Assembly: GCF_002775205.1 (NCBI RefSeq)
Contig: NC_036448.1
Location: 3,622,572 to 3,686,571 of the forward strand
DNA from: Xiphophorus maculatus
Taxonomy: Eukaryota > Chordata > Actinopteri > Cyprinodontiformes > Poeciliidae
DNA: 64,000 bases
Direction of reading: 5' to 3'
Shown: positions 2,234 to 56,307 of the stretch, piece after piece
Position numbering within the stretch: the first letter of the stretch is position 1
Layout of the letters: the number at the start of each line of letters is the position of its first letter
Notes under the pieces: generated by a model
Database searches by the model: none
Seen by the model: the letters and a program-made list of their open reading frames with translations, nothing else
What the model was told of the DNA's origin: nothing
Program-made: the position numbers and the translations under genes

Positions 2234-3397
2234 CTATAAAAATGCTGCTTTGCAAGGATAGGTGTCGACAAACCGGGGTTTACAGAGGAGATACATTCTC
2301 ACTACAGTGCAGTACAGCTTCCCGAACAGTCCTGAGGTGCTCTGCTGGACCTTTGGGTGCGTCGCCTCCCGCCACAGTTCATAAATGTCCTTCACGTGGC
2401 CGTGAGAGGTCATCATCTGGCTGTAGATACACGGGTGGTACGGTGCCTTGCCCTCTCCCGCGAAATAAACGTGCTGCTGTGGCGACACGTTGACGGCGTT
2501 GGCGCAGATGCCCATGAACACGTCGTCTATGTAGAGGGAGGCGTTCAGGGTCAGCGTGGCGTGGTAGATTTTATGGGCCACGTCGCCAGAGACGACGTAG
2601 CCGGCCCCGGCCGTGTAGTCGGGGTAAGTCGACCATTGGTACATCTCATAGGGAACGTAGTACTTGCTGTCTTTTCTGCGGATGGGAGGTGCTCCGATGT
2701 GCACTCTCCCCGTCCAGAAGTCGGTGACCCCCTGGCTGCTCAGCTCCTGCAGGTACCTCACCAGGTTGGGCATGTGGACAAAGACGTCGTCGTCCGTGGT
2801 CATGAAGAAGCGGGCGTGGGCGCAGCGGCTGTGCATCCAGTGGTACTGCATGATGAGTTTGAGGGTCAGGTTGTGGAAGGAGTCCTTGAAGTTCTTCTGG
2901 ATCAAGTCGCCATAGACGGCATCCTCGTGGACAAGCTTCCTCCGGAAGCCACTGTCGCTCTTATTGCTCCACAAAGGCTCGGTCTTTTTCCTCCTAACGG
3001 TTCCCAAGGCGAACAGGACCTTGACCGTCACGCCCAGGGTATTTTGGATGTACCCCTCGTTGCCCCAGGTGGTTCGGATGGCGTTTCGACGCTCAAAGTT
3101 CTCCGGGAAGGATTTTACGAAGACGAGGAGGAGGACGTCCTTGTCTGCGCACTTGTCGGGGTGGTCCAACACGTAGGGGAAGTCACTGAAGCTTCTGGCC
3201 TGCTCGCGAGGAATAGTGAGGCTCCTATTGACGTAGTAGAAGCTGTTGATGAGGTAGCGGAAGGAGTAGGACTTGACGTGGCTGACGACGGCTGAGTCCA
3301 GCTGCTCCCAGCAGATCATTACCACCGACAGCAGCAGGCAGCTTGTCATCAGCTGCACCAACTGGCATTTTCGGATGCGCCTCAAGTTCACGAACAT
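2234..3397 (-). CDS. b3gnt5: lactosylceramide beta-1,3-N-acetylglucosaminyltransferase (B3GNT5)
   Basis: Type II Golgi membrane glycosyltransferase of family GT31. The family member B3GNT5 adds GlcNAc in beta-1,3 linkage to lactosylceramide and so starts lacto/neolacto-series glycolipids. The 387-residue protein has a short basic cytoplasmic tail (RRIRK, residues 6-10), a signal-anchor helix at about 11-30, and a luminal catalytic domain. Visible family motifs are RRNAIRTTWGNE (103-114), the metal-binding TDDDVFVH with the DDD triad at 202-204, YPDYTAGAGYVVSGD (258-272), DDVFMGIC (291-298), and the C-terminal VDTYPCKAAF. Potential N-glycosylation sites are N57, N145, N176 and N285. Length and order match vertebrate B3GNT5, whose coding region is also a single exon. 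The ATG at 3397 gives the family-typical short tail. An upstream noncoding exon is likely but was not identified. A long plus-strand frame (2357-3295) is its antisense shadow. Confidence 0.96.
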   Translation of the reverse strand: MFVNLRRIRKCQLVQLMTSCLLLSVVMICWEQLDSAVVSHVKSYSFRYLINSFYYVNRSLTIPREQARSFSDFPYVLDHPDKCADKDVLLLVFVKSFPENFERRNAIRTTWGNEGYIQNTLGVTVKVLFALGTVRRKKTEPLWSNKSDSGFRRKLVHEDAVYGDLIQKNFKDSFHNLTLKLIMQYHWMHSRCAHARFFMTTDDDVFVHMPNLVRYLQELSSQGVTDFWTGRVHIGAPPIRRKDSKYYVPYEMYQWSTYPDYTAGAGYVVSGDVAHKIYHATLTLNASLYIDDVFMGICANAVNVSPQQHVYFAGEGKAPYHPCIYSQMMTSHGHVKDIYELWREATHPKVQQSTSGLFGKLYCTVVRMYLLCKPRFVDTYPCKAAFL

Positions 3398-47749: not shown

Positions 47750-48086
47750 CTGTATTACCTATTTCTTGTGTTGATCTATGGTCGCTCCCTGCAAGAAAAA
47801 TACAAAACTCTAAAGTTTATCTAAAACTTTAGAGTTTTCAGATAAACTTTTACAAGGACTGAGAGTGACTCTCAAACCTTTTGTAAGAAGCAATACTATA
47901 TTGCAGTGGTCCCCAACCCCCGGGCCGCGGACCGGTACCGGTCCGTGGACCAATTGGTACCGGGCCGCTGAAGAAATAATTAAATACTTCCGTCTCGGTG
48001 CGCAAACCACGCCCCAACCCCCGGTCCGCAGCAAATTTTCGAAGTCTTGACCGGGCCGCTTTTACGTTAAAGATTGGGGACCACTG
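47750..48086. repeat. duplicated block, left copy (pair with 55967-56299)
   Basis: From GTATTACCTATTTCTTGTGT through AACTCTAAAGTTTATCTAAA and AAACCTTTTGTAAGAAGCAA to the end of the hAT MITE, the sequence is nearly identical to 55967-56299 in the same orientation. The two copies bracket the pair of USP-like genes. The block contains the small palindrome TCTAAAACTTTAGA. Confidence 0.9.
47904..48086. mobile_element. complete hAT-type MITE
   Basis: Terminal repeats CAGTGGTCCCCAA and TTGGGGACCACTG, 183 bases, with a GC-rich CCGCGGACCGGTACCGGTCC centre. The flanks CTATATTG and CTATAATG match at 7 of 8 bases and fit the 8-base target-site duplication of hAT elements. Confidence 0.85.
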
Positions 48087-48183
48087 CTATAATGAATCCA
48101 AAAAAAGGAACATAGAAGAAAAAAAACTTTCTCGTGTGCACCATTGTAGCCAGCTTTCTCTCAACTTTACCTTACCTTCTGTC

Positions 48184-49805
48184 GGGATTTGAGATTTTTA
48201 TGTTTATTTTGAGTTCTCTGTGTTCTGAGTCCCTGTGCTGTCCTGTCCTCCCCTTGATTGTTCCCTGGTGTGTCTCGTTTCCTTGATTACCCTCTTTGTA
48301 TTTAACTCCACCAGCCTTATTCCGCCTGTCAGCGCCTGGTCATTGCCACATGCATGGTCCTTATGCTGAACTACTGGATCCTGCGACTTCTGCACCTGGG
48401 GCTGGCAGAGTTGCAGCAGGAGGCAGAGTGGGAGCGCCTGACGGCGGTTGCCGTTCTGAAAGGCAACACTCTGCCTCCCAAGCCGCAGAGTCTCTCTGCC
48501 AGCCCAGACCCAGCGTCTCCGGAACCAGCACCTCCAGAGCCCGCAGCAGCGCCTCCGCGGCCAGAGCCTGCAGCAGCCCCCTCTCCTGCAGCTCCAGAGA
48601 CTGTTTCTCCTGCACCCGCCATACCTTCAGCCGTTGCTGTCTCCGTGCCTCCAGCCCCTGCGTCCTCCACACCTCCGGTCGTCACCGCTACAGCTGCCGC
48701 TCCCACGCCCGCAGGAGCCGTTGCTCCTAAGCCTGCTCCAGCCCCTCGGCGAAAAGAGCCCACTCTCGCCTTCGCTCCGGTCCCCATGGTGAAGGGTTTC
48801 CAGGCGGCCGCCTGACACCAGGCCGACAGGGGGCGCGGCTGATGGCGTGGCCTGTCTCCGTAAGTGAGCCTTCGGGCCCAGTTAGTGGGTTCTTGGCCCC
48901 TAAAGAGCTTCCTAGTTCCTCCGAGATTCCTAGTGTCCCCTCCAAGCTCCCTAGCTTTCCCTCCGAGCTCCCTAGCTTTCCCTCCGAGCTCCCTAGCGTC
49001 TCCTCCGAGCTCCCTAGTGTTCCCTCCAAGCTCCCTAGCATCCCCTCCAAGCTCCCTGGCTTTCCCTCCAAGCTCCCTAGCGTCCCCTCCAAGCTCCCTG
49101 GCTTTCCCTCCAAGCTCCCTAGCGTCCCCTCCAAGCTCCCTGGCGTTCCCTCCAAGCTCCCTAGCGTCTCCTCCGAGCTCCCTAGTGTTCCCAATGTTTC
49201 CTCGTCGCCCCCTAGGGCTCCTCCCGAGAACCAGCCTCCTAGTGCTCCTCCAGATTCTCCCAGAGACTCCTTGTCGCCGCCTCCTGTGGCGCGGTCCCTG
49301 CGCCGACATCGCCTGGCGGACCCGCCTCCCGCAGCCTGGCCTCTGTGCCGACGTCGACCTCCGGACCAGCCTCCAGGGGCCCGGCCCCAGCACCGACATT
49401 GCCCGCCGGACCCACATTTGGCTCCTTCCTGTGCCTCCGCCCACCCTGCTGGGTTGTTTTTTGTTGTTATTTGGACTCTGGCCCCCCGTCCTGCGCCCCT
49501 CCACCCACCCTTGTCAGGTCCTCGTCTCATTTGGTGTCATCGTGCTGTCTCTGTCTTTACACCGCACCTCCTTCTTCCCGTCCCCAGTGCCACGGACGTC
49601 CTCCGGACCTCTCCCGTGGGTTCTGCCTCCAGTGCCGCGGACGCCTGCCGGACCTCCCACGCGACGGACGCCCGCCGGACTTTCCCCGCGGGTTTCATCT
49701 CCTGTGCCTCCGCCCAGCCTGATGGGTTGTTTTCTGTTGTTATTTGGACTCTGGCCCCCCGTCCTGTGCCCCTCCACCCACCCTTGTTGTGTTTTGTTTT
49801 TCAGA
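48184..49805 (+). mobile_element. retroelement-like fragment with Pro-rich repeat region
   Basis: Starts with an LTR/promoter-like stretch (CCCTGTGCTGTCCTGTCC ... CTTTGTATTTAACTCCACC). It then reads MNYW/RLLHLGLAELQQEAE-type and Pro/Ala-rich sequence, and then a tandem array of a 21-base unit (about 48930-49190) coding the heptad PSKLPSV/PSELPSF. After this come two copies of TTATTTGGACTCTGGCCCCC at 49459 and 49735, and finally TTTTTCAGAATTTGAGC. The order recalls noncoding or accessory parts of fish Ty3/gypsy-like elements. No reverse transcriptase, protease or integrase is present, so the class is an inference. A second truncated copy is at 53286-54117. Confidence 0.55.
48930..49190. repeat. 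21-base tandem repeat (heptapeptide PSKLPSV)
   Basis: About 12 units of CCCTCCAAGCTCCCTAGCGT-type sequence with alternating variants (AGCGTC, GGCTTT, AAG/GAG). The unit length is a multiple of three and lacks stops in several frames on both strands. This explains the long open frames on plus and minus here. Confidence 0.9.
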
Positions 49806-51789
49806 ATTTGAGCCCTACACTGTATTCGTCCTGTCCTTCTGTGGCTTTTTCATAGATGTAGACGTACCCATTGCTGCAAACGTCAGCTGCACAGTCGATC
49901 GTTTCCAGTGATACCCGCTCATCCTCCGCCTTAAACACCAGTTCTCCACACATCAGATATGTGTAAAAGCTGCTGGTGTCAGAAGCAGTTGAATGTCTCC
50001 AGCAAATGACGGAGGACAGATGATATAACTGAGTTCCATTTTTTAAAGGAACTTCCAGGGCTGGGTCAGGTATCACAGGATGTCTATCATCTGGACTGTC
50101 TGACCATGGCAGTATCAGGGTCATCACATCCGTGTCATTAAAAAAGCAATCCCTCTTTTTATTTGACTTGCAGGTGTCGCAACTTTTTGAAATTCCACTC
50201 CAATAATCCTCCAGAAGAGTTGATGTAGTGTCATTTACTTGTTCCTTTGGCAGAGGAACGACAGGACCAAGGTCACGAATAATTCGTGAACACTTCTGAC
50301 AATGTTCACAGTAGTCAGTTGTGTATAGTTTAGTGTTTGTGTAGATGCCACACTCCGCCAGATAGTGCAACATGTAAAACAACAGGACTCCTGGCCTGTC
50401 CTGATGTTTCACATCCTTAATCTTCAGAGTATCAATTAGTTCATTCTGAACAGCAAACACTTCATGTGGAGGAAAGTCTCTTCCTGGATGGCACATTGCT
50501 GTGAAGAAGCATCTCGCAAACAATGGTGTCGCTGAAAAAAGTTCAGAAATCTCCTCAGGATGCTGAGCCACAAACCTTCTGACAACAGTCAAATTAATTA
50601 TGCTTTGCATTGTGGAATTCATCCAACAGTTATAAAAGGAGTTGGAGAATTTGCAGAAATACATGGCTGGGTAAATATTTACATCCATGGCATCGAAATC
50701 GTTGGTGTCATTCTCATTTCCGTCTTCTGAGTTTTCTTCTTCAGAAGACGATTCCTCTGATGAAGAAAACTTATATACTTCTCCAAATTCTGGCCACGTA
50801 TCCTCAGCATTTGGGCTTCCAGAAGGAACTTCCTCATCCTTAGAGGAAGCATCAATGCTCTTAGTATAAATGCCTTCGTTATGGTCAGGGTCAAATTCAA
50901 CATCATCTTCAGAGCTTTCTTCATCTGAAGACCATTCTTCTGATGAAGAAAGCTCAGACACTTCATCAAAATGTGGCACAACATCATCCTTATCTTTAGT
51001 GTCCAGGTTCTCACAATGGTCTGTGTGACTTTTAATTTCTGTGTCTCCAGAGAAGGTTTCAAATTCCAGCTCCGTTTTGCTATCAGGAAGACAGATGCTT
51101 TCCAAAGCAGCAGTTTCTCCAGATGTCTTTACTGTCAAACACTTATTGATGGTAACTTCCTCGACTTTAGAGGAAGCATCGATGTCCTTCTGATTTTCAG
51201 GAAAAATGTCAAAACTCATGTACTTCCCTGTCTTAAACTCTACGAATTCTCCTGAAATTCCATCGTCTTTGGCAACAATGTCAAAACCAGAGTATTCCAA
51301 TCTTCCATCTTCAGATGAGCTCTCTGTAGAAAGATCACTGTGTTTTACATCGTCTTCGGAGACAATGTCAAAATCAGAGGACTCAAATCTTCCATCTAAA
51401 GATGAGCTCTCTCCATAAACATCCTTGTGTTTTACACATTCTTCAAAGAAATCTTCAAATCCAAAATACTTCATACGTTCATCTTCATATGAGCTCTCCT
51501 TTGAAACAACATTGTGTTTTACATCGTCTTCAGCGATGACGTCAAAATCAAAGTGTTCTGGACTTTCGTCAGTTGATCTCTCTGCTGAAAGGTCTTCATC
51601 TTTTATCCGATATCCCAGCAACTTTTCTACTCCCTTTGTAACAAGATACCCAAGGCCCCAACCGATAGTTAAAATCATTGTGACTGAGGTTGAAATGGTT
51701 TCTAAAATCACTTTCCGAAATCGTCTCTCTATCAAAGTGTTGTACCTCCAACGGCGTTGAAAAGCAAACTGAGAATTCTTGTATTCCAA
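49801..51789 (-). CDS. USP-like protein with TM segment and acidic repeats; catalytic His replaced
   Basis: A single-exon frame of 662 residues. Residues 1-26 are basic. About 27-50 form a hydrophobic helix (TSVTMILTIGWGLGYLV). About 60-370 are acidic Ser/Glu/Asp-rich with degenerate 29-33 residue repeats (ESSSEDGRFE ... EDDVKH). The C-terminal 290 residues show a ubiquitin-specific protease fold: Cys box NCWMNSTMQSIINL with Cys388, an HQD-type box (KHQDRPG), a zinc ribbon CEHC...CDTC, and a His box VICWRHSTASDTSSFYTYL, an AEDERV block and a final YVYIYEK. In active USPs the His box ends G-H-Y. Here Phe608 stands at the His, while the first His of the motif (599) and the spacing are kept. It is therefore probably a pseudo-deubiquitinase or substrate binder anchored at a membrane. 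The family is not one I can name. The downstream end abuts a retroelement. Confidence 0.7.
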   Translation of the reverse strand: MEYKNSQFAFQRRWRYNTLIERRFRKVILETISTSVTMILTIGWGLGYLVTKGVEKLLGYRIKDEDLSAERSTDESPEHFDFDVIAEDDVKHNVVSKESSYEDERMKYFGFEDFFEECVKHKDVYGESSSLDGRFESSDFDIVSEDDVKHSDLSTESSSEDGRLEYSGFDIVAKDDGISGEFVEFKTGKYMSFDIFPENQKDIDASSKVEEVTINKCLTVKTSGETAALESICLPDSKTELEFETFSGDTEIKSHTDHCENLDTKDKDDVVPHFDEVSELSSSEEWSSDEESSEDDVEFDPDHNEGIYTKSIDASSKDEEVPSGSPNAEDTWPEFGEVYKFSSSEESSSEEENSEDGNENDTNDFDAMDVNIYPAMYFCKFSNSFYNCWMNSTMQSIINLTVVRRFVAQHPEEISELFSATPLFARCFFTAMCHPGRDFPPHEVFAVQNELIDTLKIKDVKHQDRPGVLLFYMLHYLAECGIYTNTKLYTTDYCEHCQKCSRIIRDLGPVVPLPKEQVNDTTSTLLEDYWSGISKSCDTCKSNKKRDCFFNDTDVMTLILPWSDSPDDRHPVIPDPALEVPLKNGTQLYHLSSVICWRHSTASDTSSFYTYLMCGELVFKAEDERVSLETIDCAADVCSNGYVYIYEKATEGQDEYSVGLKF

Positions 51790-52065
51790 ATGATAATAAT
51801 AATCGCTTGAACCTTTATGACATCATCGATGAGAACACCGATGACATGATGATGTCATGATGATGATGTCACACGACCTGTGTCAGGTTCTTGTTTGTTT
51901 TAGTTGCTATGGAAACACAAGGAGTTATGTATGAGATAAAACTACTGTCAATTAAAAATGCATGCGTAGACATCTAAATTTGTGAATTTAAGTCAGTAAA
52001 TGTGCATAAATGTAAGTTTTGTATTTGTCCTGTTTTTCAACTCATACGTACGTGTAACTTTACCT
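51790..52065. repeat. duplicated 5' flank of USP-like gene, copy 1
   Basis: CCAAATGATAATAATAATCG through ATGACATCATCGATGAGAAC and GTGTCAGGTTCTTGTTTGTT to CGTGTAACTTTACCT is repeated at 55226-55486. This is the presumed promoter side of both gene copies. Copy 1 has an additional short ATGATGATGTC repeat. Similarity stops abruptly after TTTACCT. Confidence 0.9.
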
Positions 52066-52629
52066 ATGAGAATACTCGTAAACAAATAAATTAATACAAG
52101 TGTTTTTGATTGGTTTTATAGAGAGTAAGTATTTTTCCAGAAGTTAGACACACATCAGTCACATTTAGAAACTGGCTCTAAACCATCTGCTTGATCTATT
52201 TTGAACTGGGAGTGAGGAGGATCCTCTTCAACTTATCATGTCTTGCCATAATTACTTGCTCTGTTCATAAGGAAAACATTGGCTGGCTGACTTCTCTGGT
52301 TTTCACTGCTTAGCTGCGTCATTTATATATTTCCTCTGTCCTGTTGTACAGATGGTTTTTTTTAAACATTTTATCTCCAAAAATATAGAAATGTTATGGA
52401 TGAAATAATGTGTTTACAATCATGAATTTAAAGTGTAGCAGGAAGCCGGAGCACCCGGAGAGAAACCTGCAAATTTCTTTTTGATATTTTATTCATGAAA
52501 TGTAATTACAAAATCTATTTCTGACATTTTGTAATTAAATGTCAGAAATACATTTATTATTTCAGAGCCTTTTTGGGAAATAAAGGCTCTAGTGGCCTTT
52601 ATTTAATAGGAGTAGACAGGAAAGTGGGT

Positions 52630-53254: not shown

Positions 53255-55225
53255 TCAACTAGAAATCATAGTGCAGCAAATAGAACCTCCAGCCCCTGCG
53301 TCCTCCACACCTCCGGTCGTCACCGCTGTGGCTGCCGCTCCCACGCCCCCAGCAGCCGTCGCTCCTAAGCCTTCTCCAGCCCCTCGGCGAAGAGAGCACA
53401 CTATCGCCTTCGCTCTGGTCCCCATGATGATGGGTTTCCAGGCGGTCGCCAGCCAGGGGGCGCCAGCCAGGGGGCGCGGCTGATGGCGTGGCCTGTTGCC
53501 CGTAAGTGAGCCTTCGGGCCCTGTTAGTGGGTTCTTGGCCCCTAAAGAGCTTCCTAGTTCCTCCGAGTTTCCTAGCATCCCCTCCAAGCTCCCTGGCTTT
53601 CCCTCCAAGCTCCCTAGCTTTCCCTCCAAGCTCCCTAGCTTTCCCTCCGAGATCCCTAGCGTCTCCTCCGAGCTCCCTAGTGTTCCCTCCAAGCTCCCTA
53701 GCGTCCCCTCCAAGCTCCCTGGCTTTCCCTCCAAGCTCCCTGGCTTTCCCTCCAAGCTCCCTGGCTTTCCCTCCAAGCTCCCTGGCTTTCCCTCCAAGCT
53801 CCCTAGCGTTCCCTCTAAGCTCCCTAGCGTCTCCTCCGAGCTCCCTAGTGTTTCCAATGTTTCCTCGTCGCCCCCTAGTCCTCCTCCCGAGAACCAGCCT
53901 CCTAGTGCTCCTCCAGATTCTCCCAGAGACTCCTTGTCGCCGCCTCCTGTGGCCCGGTCCCTGCGCCGACTTTGCCTGGCGGACCCGCCTCCCGCAGCCT
54001 GGCCTCTGTACCGACGTCGACCTCCGGACCAGCCTCCAGTGGCCCGGCCCCAGCACCGACGTTTCCCGTCGAACCCACATTCGGCTCCTTCCTGTGTCTC
54101 CGCCCACCCTGCTGGGTGCTGCTCAAATCTTTCATCTTCAGATGAGCTTTCTGAAGAAACGTCACTGTGTTCTACATCGTCTTCGGAGAGAGTGTCAGAA
54201 TCAGAGGACTCAAATCTTTCATCTTCAGATGAGCTTTCTGAAGAAACGTCACTGTGTTCTACTTCGTCTTCGGAGACACTGTCAGAATCAGAGGACTCAA
54301 ATCTTTCATCTTCAGATGAGCTCTCTGAAGAAACGTCACTGTGTTCTACTTCGTCTTCGGAGACACTGTCAGAACCTGAGGACTCAAATCTTTCATCTTC
54401 AGATGAGCTCTCTGAAGAAACATCACTGTGTTTTTCATCGTGTTCAACGAAATCTTCAAATTCAAAGTAATTATGTTGTTTATCTTCAGATGAGCTCTCT
54501 GCAGAAACATCAGTGTGTTTTACATCGTCTTCAGGAACGATGTCAGAACCTGAGGACTCAAATCTTTCATCTTCAGATGAGCTCTCTGAAGAAACATCAC
54601 TGTGTTTTTCATCGTGTTCAACGAAATCTTCAAATTCAAAGTAATTATGTTGTTTATCTTCAGATGAGCTCTCTGCAGAAACATCAGTGTGTTTTACATC
54701 GTCTTCAGGAACGATGTCAGAACCAGAGGACTCAAATCTTCCATCTTCAGATGAGCTTTCTGAAGAAACATCACTGTGTTTTTCATCGTCTTCAGCGAAA
54801 TCTTCAAATCCAGAGTAATTTTGTTGTTTGTCTTCAGATGAGCTCTCTGCAGAAACATCCTTGTGTTTTACACATTCTACAAAGAAATCTTCAAGTTTAA
54901 AATTCTTGTATCGTCCATCTTCAGATGTGCTCTCCTTCGAAACATCCTTGTGTTTTACATCGTCTTCAGCGATGACGTCAAAATCAAAGTGTTCTGGACT
55001 TTCGTCAGTTGATCTCTCTGCTGAAAGGTCTTCATCGTTAATCCGATATCCCAGCAACTTTTCTACTCCCTTCGTAACAAGATACCCAAGGCCCCAACCG
55101 ATAGTTAAAATCATTGTGACTGAGGTTGAAAGGGTTTCTAAAATCACTTTCCGAAATCGTCTCTCTATCAAAGTGTTGTACCTCCAACGGCGTTGAAAAG
55201 CAAACTGAGAATTCTCGTATTCCAA
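53255..55225 (-). CDS. truncated chimeric copy of the USP-like gene (open frame)
   Basis: Residues 1 to about 369 match the N-terminal half of the neighbouring 662-residue protein. The start, basic tail, hydrophobic segment and first acidic blocks are nearly identical, followed by expanded acidic repeats (29-residue unit RFESSDSD...SSESSSEDE). From base 54117 downward the frame enters the antisense of the retroelement fragment and reads Gly/Leu/Glu-rich heptads (GSLEGKP) before a stop. The whole USP domain is absent. The frame stays open for 656 residues because the 21-base repeats have no stops in this frame. It could be a pseudogene that happens to be open, or an expressed chimera. The transcript is not visible from sequence. 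Confidence 0.5.
   Translation of the reverse strand: MEYENSQFAFQRRWRYNTLIERRFRKVILETLSTSVTMILTIGWGLGYLVTKGVEKLLGYRINDEDLSAERSTDESPEHFDFDVIAEDDVKHKDVSKESTSEDGRYKNFKLEDFFVECVKHKDVSAESSSEDKQQNYSGFEDFAEDDEKHSDVSSESSSEDGRFESSGSDIVPEDDVKHTDVSAESSSEDKQHNYFEFEDFVEHDEKHSDVSSESSSEDERFESSGSDIVPEDDVKHTDVSAESSSEDKQHNYFEFEDFVEHDEKHSDVSSESSSEDERFESSGSDSVSEDEVEHSDVSSESSSEDERFESSDSDSVSEDEVEHSDVSSESSSEDERFESSDSDTLSEDDVEHSDVSSESSSEDERFEQHPAGWAETQEGAECGFDGKRRCWGRATGGWSGGRRRYRGQAAGGGSARQSRRRDRATGGGDKESLGESGGALGGWFSGGGLGGDEETLETLGSSEETLGSLEGTLGSLEGKPGSLEGKPGSLEGKPGSLEGKPGSLEGTLGSLEGTLGSSEETLGISEGKLGSLEGKLGSLEGKPGSLEGMLGNSEELGSSLGAKNPLTGPEGSLTGNRPRHQPRPLAGAPWLATAWKPIIMGTRAKAIVCSLRRGAGEGLGATAAGGVGAAATAVTTGGVEDAGAGGSICCTMISS
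53286..54117 (+). mobile_element. second copy of retroelement fragment, inside the chimeric gene
   Basis: From CCTCCAGCCCCTGCGTCCTC to CCGCCCACCCTGCTGGGT it matches 48648-49454. It starts and stops inside the element at both ends, so it did not arrive as an ordinary complete insertion. The 21-base array has a slightly different number and order of variants. Confidence 0.85.
54118..54885 (-). repeat. 87-base tandem repeat coding the acidic region
   Basis: CAAATCTTTCATCTTCAGATGAG recurs at 54124 and 54211, 87 bases apart (29 codons). Further on, a double unit of about 174 bases (with TCAAAGTAATTATGTTGTTT) is repeated. Copies near the retroelement end are the most alike, which indicates recent expansion. 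Confidence 0.85.
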
Positions 55226-55486
55226 ATGATAATAATAATCCTTGAACCTTTATGACATCATCGATGAGAACACCGATGACATGATGATGTCACACGACCT
55301 GTGTCAGGTTCTTGTTTGTTTTAGTTGCTATGGAAACACAAGGAGTTATGTATGAGATAAGACTACTGTCAATTAAAAATGCATGCGTAGACATCTAAAT
55401 TTGTGAATTTAAGTCAGTAAATGTGCATAAATGTAAGTTTTGTATTTGTCCTGTTTTTCAACTCATACGTACGTGTAACTTTACCT
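55226..55486. repeat. duplicated 5' flank of USP-like gene, copy 2
   Basis: Partner of 51790-52065. Identical for long stretches, lacking one short ATGATG repeat. Similarity ends after TTTACCT, where a different repeat (CGACGTGTTTTGCGTTCAGA) begins. Confidence 0.9.
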
Positions 55487-55810: not shown

Positions 55811-55966
55811 TGACATAGTAGTGTCAGTACTTTAACAAATTCTGACAGTTTCAGAAAGCTCAAAGTTTTGACATTTTTCAAAAGATTTCCTTTTGATTTC
55901 CTTTGATTTCTTCCCAGTGGCCGGTGAGTGTATGTGCAACTGTCCTGTGTGTGAATTCATTTGCTG

Positions 55967-56299
55967 TATTACCTATTTCTTGTGTTGATCTATGGTCGCT
56001 CCCTGCAAGAAAAATACAAAACTCTAAAGTTTATCTAAAGCTTTAGAGTTTTCAGATAAACTTTTACAAGGACTGAGAGTGACTCTCAAACCTTTTGTAA
56101 GAAGCAATACTATAATGCAGTGGTCCCCAACCCCCGGGCCGCGGACCGGTACCGGTCCGTGGACCAATTGGTACCGGGCCGCTGAAGAAATAATTAAATA
56201 CTTCCGTCTCGGCGCGCAACCCACCCCCCATTCCCCCGGTCCGCAGTGAATTTTTGAAGTCTTGACCGGGCCGCGTTACTAAAAAGATTGGGGACCTCT
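55967..56299. repeat. duplicated block, right copy (pair with 47750-48086)
   Basis: Same order as the left copy, including the left flank of the hAT element with target-site duplication CTATAATG. The right end differs, as described in the findings. Confidence 0.9.
56118..56299. mobile_element. hAT MITE with mismatched flanks
   Basis: CAGTGGTCCCCAACCCCCGG to GATTGGGGACCTCTG. The left flank is CTATAATG, but the right flank is CTCTAGAC. A hAT insertion should have identical 8-base flanks, so this copy is probably a recombinant of two elements. Confidence 0.85.
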
Positions 56300-56307
56300 G
56301 CTCTAGA

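Follow-up and report, generated by a model that had tools for sequence, protein, structure and literature searches.

A multi-copy family of proteins with an apparently optional and probably inactivated USP-type domain in Xiphophorus maculatus

The window analyzed here, a 64,000-nucleotide stretch of the Xiphophorus maculatus genome (NC_036448.1, positions 3,622,572 to 3,686,571), contains a single-exon open reading frame (ORF), referred to as copy A, whose product resembles the USP deubiquitinases. Our analysis favors the view that copy A belongs to a lineage-restricted family of proteins in which an N-terminal motif and acidic repeats precede a USP-type domain that has been inactivated as a cysteine protease and serves a non-catalytic role. 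The N-terminal motif would place the protein at a membrane or a partner, and the long acidic repeat region, which is probably disordered, would act as a spacer. The domain would be unable to work as a cysteine protease because its catalytic His is replaced by Ser, and its role may be to bind a ligand, either ubiquitin-like or some other protein, that it leaves uncut; an X-box/CRE-like promoter would point to germline (spermatid) or ciliated-cell expression. The more specific proposal that the protein is a non-catalytic binding or scaffold module is a tentative one.

Copy A is a real ORF at 49801-51789 on the minus strand, where 662 codons are counted from a TTG. The first ATG, at 51678, opens a coding sequence of 625 amino acids (49801..51678, minus strand) and is most likely the true start, because a homologous ATG begins most of the sister ORFs read (the C11 ORF excepted). 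The ORF is more than a chance occurrence because a tblastn search of the fish's own genome (704,300,149 bases in 101 contigs; 67 of 342 candidates were scored) gave at least 107 matches and the divergent sister ORFs reach 664-1232 codons. An N-terminal hydrophobic/amphipathic motif (MILTIGWGLGYLVTKGVEKLLGY..., 51589..51678, minus strand) is followed, after the first 30 residues, by a 298-residue region rich in Ser, Asp, and Glu (50695..51588, minus strand; pI 4.05, D+E 29.8%, net charge -65), close to the roughly 300 acidic residues reported in a preliminary description of this sequence. Repeats of 29 aa (87 bp) lie inside this region at 51261-51554 on the minus strand. The USP-type (Pfam UCH) domain occupies 49819..50679 on the minus strand. 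It contains the box NCWMNS with a catalytic-type Cys that is kept (Cys388, or Cys351 from the ATG; codon at 50626..50628, minus strand), zinc-ribbon-type cysteines in the arrangement CxxC...CxxC (CEHC and CDTC; 50170..50310, minus strand), and the blocks TSSFYTYL and YVYIYEK. The ORF, the Cys box, the ribbon, and the YVYIYEK block had all been named in the preliminary description, and each was located in the sequence.

The homology of the domain to USPs, also proposed in that description, is secure by way of its relatives, because these match the UCH profile over its full length and the window domain is 46-47% identical to P0002-P0004 across the whole domain. Positions 2-254 of the 254-position profile PF00443 were matched by P0006 (C11; E 3.9e-28 for the whole protein, with its three domains taken together), P0002 (E 7.2e-18, in two stretches), P0003 (E 1.1e-13), and L031 (E 1.9e-7, one domain), and matches reaching position 241 were obtained for L033 (E 3.2e-9) and P0004 (E 8.1e-8). 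P0005 and P0007 gave no UCH match at E<=0.1; the profile was matched at E<=1 by 15 of the 18 family domains. When the profile was searched genome-wide, the rows covering at least 234 of the 254 positions were family members only (C11 three times, C23 twice, and C24), and the remaining rows were partial, as multi-exon genes would give.

The register of the catalytic His was set by phmmer and profile alignments, in which the His of HFYTY in the relatives lines up with that of Ubp6 and USP36; these Ubp6 and USP36 alignments are weak (whole-sequence E 0.028 to 0.13) yet agree with each other. The corresponding residue of copy A is Ser607 (Ser570 from the ATG; codon at 49969..49971, minus strand), the second S of TSSFYTY. 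The preliminary description was thus right that the His has been replaced, but its register, which put the site at the Phe of S-F-Y where G-H-Y is expected, had to be shifted. The loss is shared by the window clade, a group of copies that are 81-95% identical and lie on seven chromosomes (C2, C3, C4, C6, C14, C15, and C18): Ser or Asn occupies the site in all 22 unbroken domains examined, and no His was found at the site or beside it. Half of these domains (11/22) have Cys at the Cys site, and the other 11 have Ser. The window copy conserves the Asn at -5 of the Cys and carries Glu at the third catalytic position, a column that we take to be the Asp/Asn site and in which, in the register of the Ubp6/USP36 alignments, Asp or Asn would be wanted for an active USP. 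The 22-domain set omits L025, a window-clade copy whose frame is broken inside the domain and whose pieces have Cys and, at the His site, Ser; it also omits L021-L023, L026, and L040, which overlap loci already included, and the C5 copies with stops. L007, L008, and L020 are among the 22 with an unbroken domain and a frame broken elsewhere, and our tabulation of residues leaves out L015 and L028 (2 of the 22), which encode identical proteins.

Outside the window clade the catalytic residues form a mosaic. Cys and His are both present in C11 domains 1 and 2, C19, C23/C24, and the first domains of P0002-P0004; Cys is replaced by Ser with His retained in C11 domain 3, P0002 domain 2, and C21:3.89, and by Gly with His retained in C14:25.6; both residues are gone from both domains of the C9/C21/C18 subfamily. 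The full Cys-His-Asp set occurs in C23/C24 and P0002 domain 1, and most of the others carry Glu as the third residue. Tree support was 1.0 for the window clade and 0.988 for its Cys>Ser subclade. On the assumption that the ancestral domain had Cys, as other USPs do, this tree requires at least four losses of it.

Codon models showed that the window clade is not evolving neutrally. Omega (dN/dS) was estimated with GY+F3X4 in IQ-TREE, with kappa estimated, and the fits with omega=1 used three kappa values and an unchanged topology. Omega was 0.369 for all 22 window-clade domains, and fixing it at 1 cost 70.4 in twice the log-likelihood difference (2dlnL), which bears out the non-neutral dN/dS that the preliminary description had made a check of its proposal. 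The 11 Cys-keeping copies, the window copy among them, gave 0.406 (2dlnL 37.1 vs omega=1), the 11 Cys>Ser copies 0.251 (2dlnL 35.9), and the six His-keeping domains 0.619 (2dlnL 16.0); pairwise values between the window copy and the 21 other clade copies were 0.21-0.42. MG fits with kappa 1, now superseded by the GY fits, likewise rejected omega=1 for the dead clade. These results suggest that this clade is very probably under purifying selection, as a constrained pseudo-deubiquitinase rather than a gene in plain decay.

Beyond the window clade, divergent subfamilies were found on C11, C19, C23/C24, C9/C21/C18:2.1 Mb (with two domains), C21:3.89 Mb, and C14:25.6 Mb, and in the ten loci read for them (L030-L039) each domain lies within one open frame; in L030 (C11:4362000-4371999), three USP-like domains share a single 1232-codon frame. 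Poeciliopsis prolifica, Gambusia affinis, and Girardinichthys multiradiatus each supplied a named protein relative, annotated as uncharacterized in every case, and these were the only three to turn up in a set of 5.8 billion sequences by a word-based search of limited sensitivity. Protein searches seeded with P0005 gave none, and those seeded with P0007 gave just P0002 and P0003 again. The literature searched contained no paper on, or name for, this gene family. As far as these searches reach, the window ORF appears to belong to an undescribed and lineage-restricted multigene family in a cyprinodontiform fish, in keeping with the lineage-specific family that had been suggested.

The window itself contains a second member, copy B, assigned to 53255..55114 on the minus strand within an ORF at 53255-55225. 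This tandem paralogue shares copy A's promoter, N-terminus, and acidic repeats, and its USP domain has been deleted; it is 93% identical to copy A across a 300-nt stretch in the 5' part, and its frame continues into a GC-rich repeat after the loss of the domain. The deletion junction is common to copy B and five other C6 ORFs, and L023, L024, L026, and L029 are, like copy B, domain-less loci with one junction and long frames into the GC-rich 21-bp repeat. An open frame across this repeat is no evidence of coding, because the repeat is open on both strands in the window. One 21-bp GC-rich minisatellite lies 3' of copy A (48918..49192, unstranded), and a second GC-rich array lies in copy B (53560-53848). 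Copies on other chromosomes have upstream and promoter DNA in common and therefore spread by DNA-level duplication, so that the retrocopy origin previously considered for these single-exon genes is not supported for the dispersed duplicates; an older retroposition may have founded the family. A longer C-terminus, TTDQQQR, is present in the Cys>Ser copies and the C15 copy and has been lost in the C6 and C4 copies shown. Just after the stop in L009-L012, L019, and L020, which are Cys>Ser copies and the C15 copy, the 3' flank carries GGACATGTCC-like palindromes that resemble what we take to be p53 half-sites.

Upstream of copy A, an RFX-type X-box (GTTTCCATAGCAAC, 51903..51916, minus strand) lies 224 nt before the ATG, with two CRE-like TGACATCA sites downstream of it (51850..51871, minus strand), and copy B has its own X-box at 55324..55337 on the minus strand. 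With a consensus that we presume to be the standard one, and that was picked after the motif had already been seen in the window and some relatives, an X-box with at most one mismatch was found 154-298 nt before the ATG in six of the seven subfamilies, always on the coding strand. Between subfamilies, 12-14 of its 14 positions are conserved. Identity over the 100 bp upstream of it is 59-75%, compared with a mean of 70% when one pair was shuffled 50 times, and the 150 bp downstream are 68-88% identical and hence partly alignable as well. L009, a window-clade copy with different upstream DNA, has no X-box. The best CRE-like site of C14:25.6 precedes its X-box rather than following it.

A scan of the 704-Mb genome for GTTTCCATAGCAAC followed after 20-50 nt by TGAYRTCA gave 47 matches (one site listed twice), and the reversed control gave 0. 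Of these sites, 27 lie at most 1038 nt upstream of a window-protein match on the same strand, several of these matches being domain-deleted paralogues like copy B. Twelve of the other 20 sites were fetched, and nine of the 12 precede an ORF whose N-terminal motif follows the X-box by 154-174 nt and which has no window-protein match nearby; four of these nine ORFs were scanned and contained no Pfam domain at E<=1. The remaining three sites precede a decayed window-type copy (L052, C5), stand in a window-type promoter after which the N-terminal motif was not found (L047, C5), or look like a chance match (L049). In the nine motif-bearing loci (L041, L043, L044, L045, L050, L051, L042, L046, and L048), the same promoter and N-terminal motif are followed by repeats (DLFW, PGRG); L045, L050, and L051 were seen to about 1 kb only, so that their ORFs end beyond the sequence read, and the ORFs of L042, L046, and L048, just 113 aa long, may be decayed. 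The promoter and the N-terminus look like an enduring unit to which the USP domain is optional.

The start-of-protein motif, h-G-[WFL]-x-[LV]-G-[YFH]-h-[VI]-[TS]-x-x-h-K-[KR], is common to USP-bearing relatives and to the ORFs with no USP match nearby. Proteins of C9, C14, C21, C23/C24, and the window clade have it; it is weak in C19 and P0004 and absent from the C11 ORF. The preliminary description had called the window protein membrane-anchored, a claim we do not retain: no 19-residue stretch reaches the transmembrane cut-off of Kyte-Doolittle 1.6 (maximum 1.08), a crude cut-off that also flags a USP-domain stretch in L030 and L031. C-terminal stretches above it, up to 3.07, occur in L035-L039. 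The hydrophobic moment of the N-terminal segment, 0.30-0.44, allows an amphipathic helix to form there.

Spermatid or ciliated-cell expression is a possible prediction from this promoter, about which we remain somewhat doubtful. According to PMC4498915, RFX2 binds 14-bp X-boxes of this type close to where genes of spermiogenesis start, and CREM, a second haploid-stage regulator, has a gene set largely separate from that of RFX2 in mouse testis.

Several observations weigh against our interpretation. Because the RFX2 and CREM gene sets are largely separate in mouse testis (PMC4498915), the pairing of an X-box with CRE-like sites is no proof of spermatid expression, and the strict X-box+CRE pattern reaches just three of the seven subfamilies (the window clade, C11, and C21:3.89). 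The window protein as a whole scores 20.5 bits against UCH, under the cut-off of 23.9, and the domain alone scores 24.2 bits over profile positions 2-138 only. No sequence relative was found in the PDB at E<=0.01 (best E 0.028), and AlphaFold on a 4-sequence alignment of the domain returned a mean pLDDT of 36.2. The C9/C21/C18 subfamily lacks the X-box, and its two domains (three sequences each) gave omega values of 0.94 and 1.49, not different from 1. Gene conversion among paralogues, for which our fits have no term, could distort omega. USP53 and USP54, long deemed inactive, proved active (PMC12037411). The members of the two-domain subfamily (L035, L036, and L037, on C9, C21, and C18:2.1 Mb) each have two dead domains and C-terminal hydrophobic stretches, and this subfamily may be under relaxed or adaptive evolution.

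If the copies were mostly dying by-products of segmental duplication, with one or a few functional source genes seeding and converting the rest, the window copy would be functionless. Matches with internal stops (the C5 array, C15, and several C6 pieces), the six ORFs with one common deletion of the entire USP domain, the decayed or motif-less loci behind the two C5 promoters (L052 and L047), and the GC-rich repeats adjoining the genes all fit such a scenario. It is unlikely, however: the window copy is fully open with its start and promoter in place, and both the Cys-keeping set that includes it and its 21 pairs show the low omega values given above. Less probable again is that the promoter and N-terminal motif are an evolutionary unit amplified in tandem with fast-evolving acidic repeats, the USP domain being a decaying decoy that binds and does not cut; if so, amplification, restriction to one lineage, and haploid-stage activity would together be consistent with a germline arms race in live-bearing fish, through sperm competition or meiotic drive.

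It is improbable that the domain remains active through some unusual catalysis, whether as a deubiquitinase or as a UBL protease. The window copy keeps the Cys and the Asn at -5, and Cys, His, and Asp are retained in the C23/C24 relatives and P0002 domain 1. USP53/54 were mistaken for inactive enzymes on account of missing conserved residues ahead of the His (PMC12037411), and the activity of USP39/USP52 has been reconsidered (PMC10919355). However, USP53/54 possess the His, and cleavage was abolished when their Cys or His was mutated (PMC12037411), whereas no His stands at or beside the site in the window clade and its lowest omega belongs to the set that has lost the Cys too. Spread by a transposon or virus carrying the gene, which the 81-95% identity across seven chromosomes and the repeats spaced 8.2 kb around the two-gene unit would suit, is very improbable, as viral contigs held no close relative of the single protein used as query, no shared terminal ends were seen within the limited flanks of the loci examined, the breakpoint at 52280, rejected as a transposon end, is private to the window lineage, six of the seven other loci inspected share DNA further upstream, and the copies retain a host-type promoter.

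The two-gene unit is bracketed by direct repeats at 47750-48091 and 55964-56305, 8.2 kb apart and 97% identical over 273 nt, which may be a mobile-element remnant. Elsewhere in the window, a single-exon ORF of 387 aa at 2234-3397 on the minus strand resembles beta-1,3-galactosyltransferases (Galactosyl_T, E 1.3e-42).

PMC10919355 counts approximately 13% of known deubiquitinases as pseudo-DUBs, and single conserved genes reveal little of how a protease domain turns into a constrained non-enzyme. What is apparently new here is a recurrently inactivated, constrained, multi-copy USP family in which the USP domain seems to be optional. Behind one promoter and N-terminus, one genome holds a series of complete Cys-His-Asp, His-less, Cys- and His-less, and domain-deleted forms, and selection is measurable on several of these stages, so that the question can be put to a direct test in a group of fish amenable to laboratory work.

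The family is like the USP deubiquitinases (USP36, USP25/28, and USP14/Ubp6) in its Cys box with Asn at -5, CxxC...CxxC ribbon, His-box strand, and late Y-x-Y block, and its sister proteins match the profile over its full length; the chains of these enzymes give weak local matches. The window clade differs from them in its replaced His, its Glu as third residue, and its single exon, and, with a best PDB E of 0.028, no named USP is close enough to be identified as the parent. Two membrane-anchored USPs with established transmembrane helices, USP30 and USP19, likewise combine a USP domain with a hydrophobic segment, whereas the N-terminal segment of the window protein stays under the transmembrane cut-off and is separated from the domain by a 300-residue acidic spacer. 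USP39/Sad1 and USP52/PAN2 have roles in splicing or deadenylation. Like the window clade, they have a USP-type domain without the full triad (PMC10919355); they are conserved genes, whereas the present family is multi-copy and lineage-restricted and has lost its residues several times. USP53 and USP54 resemble the window clade as distant USPs in which the residues preceding the His are atypical; both retain the His itself and have activity (PMC12037411), whereas the window clade has replaced it.

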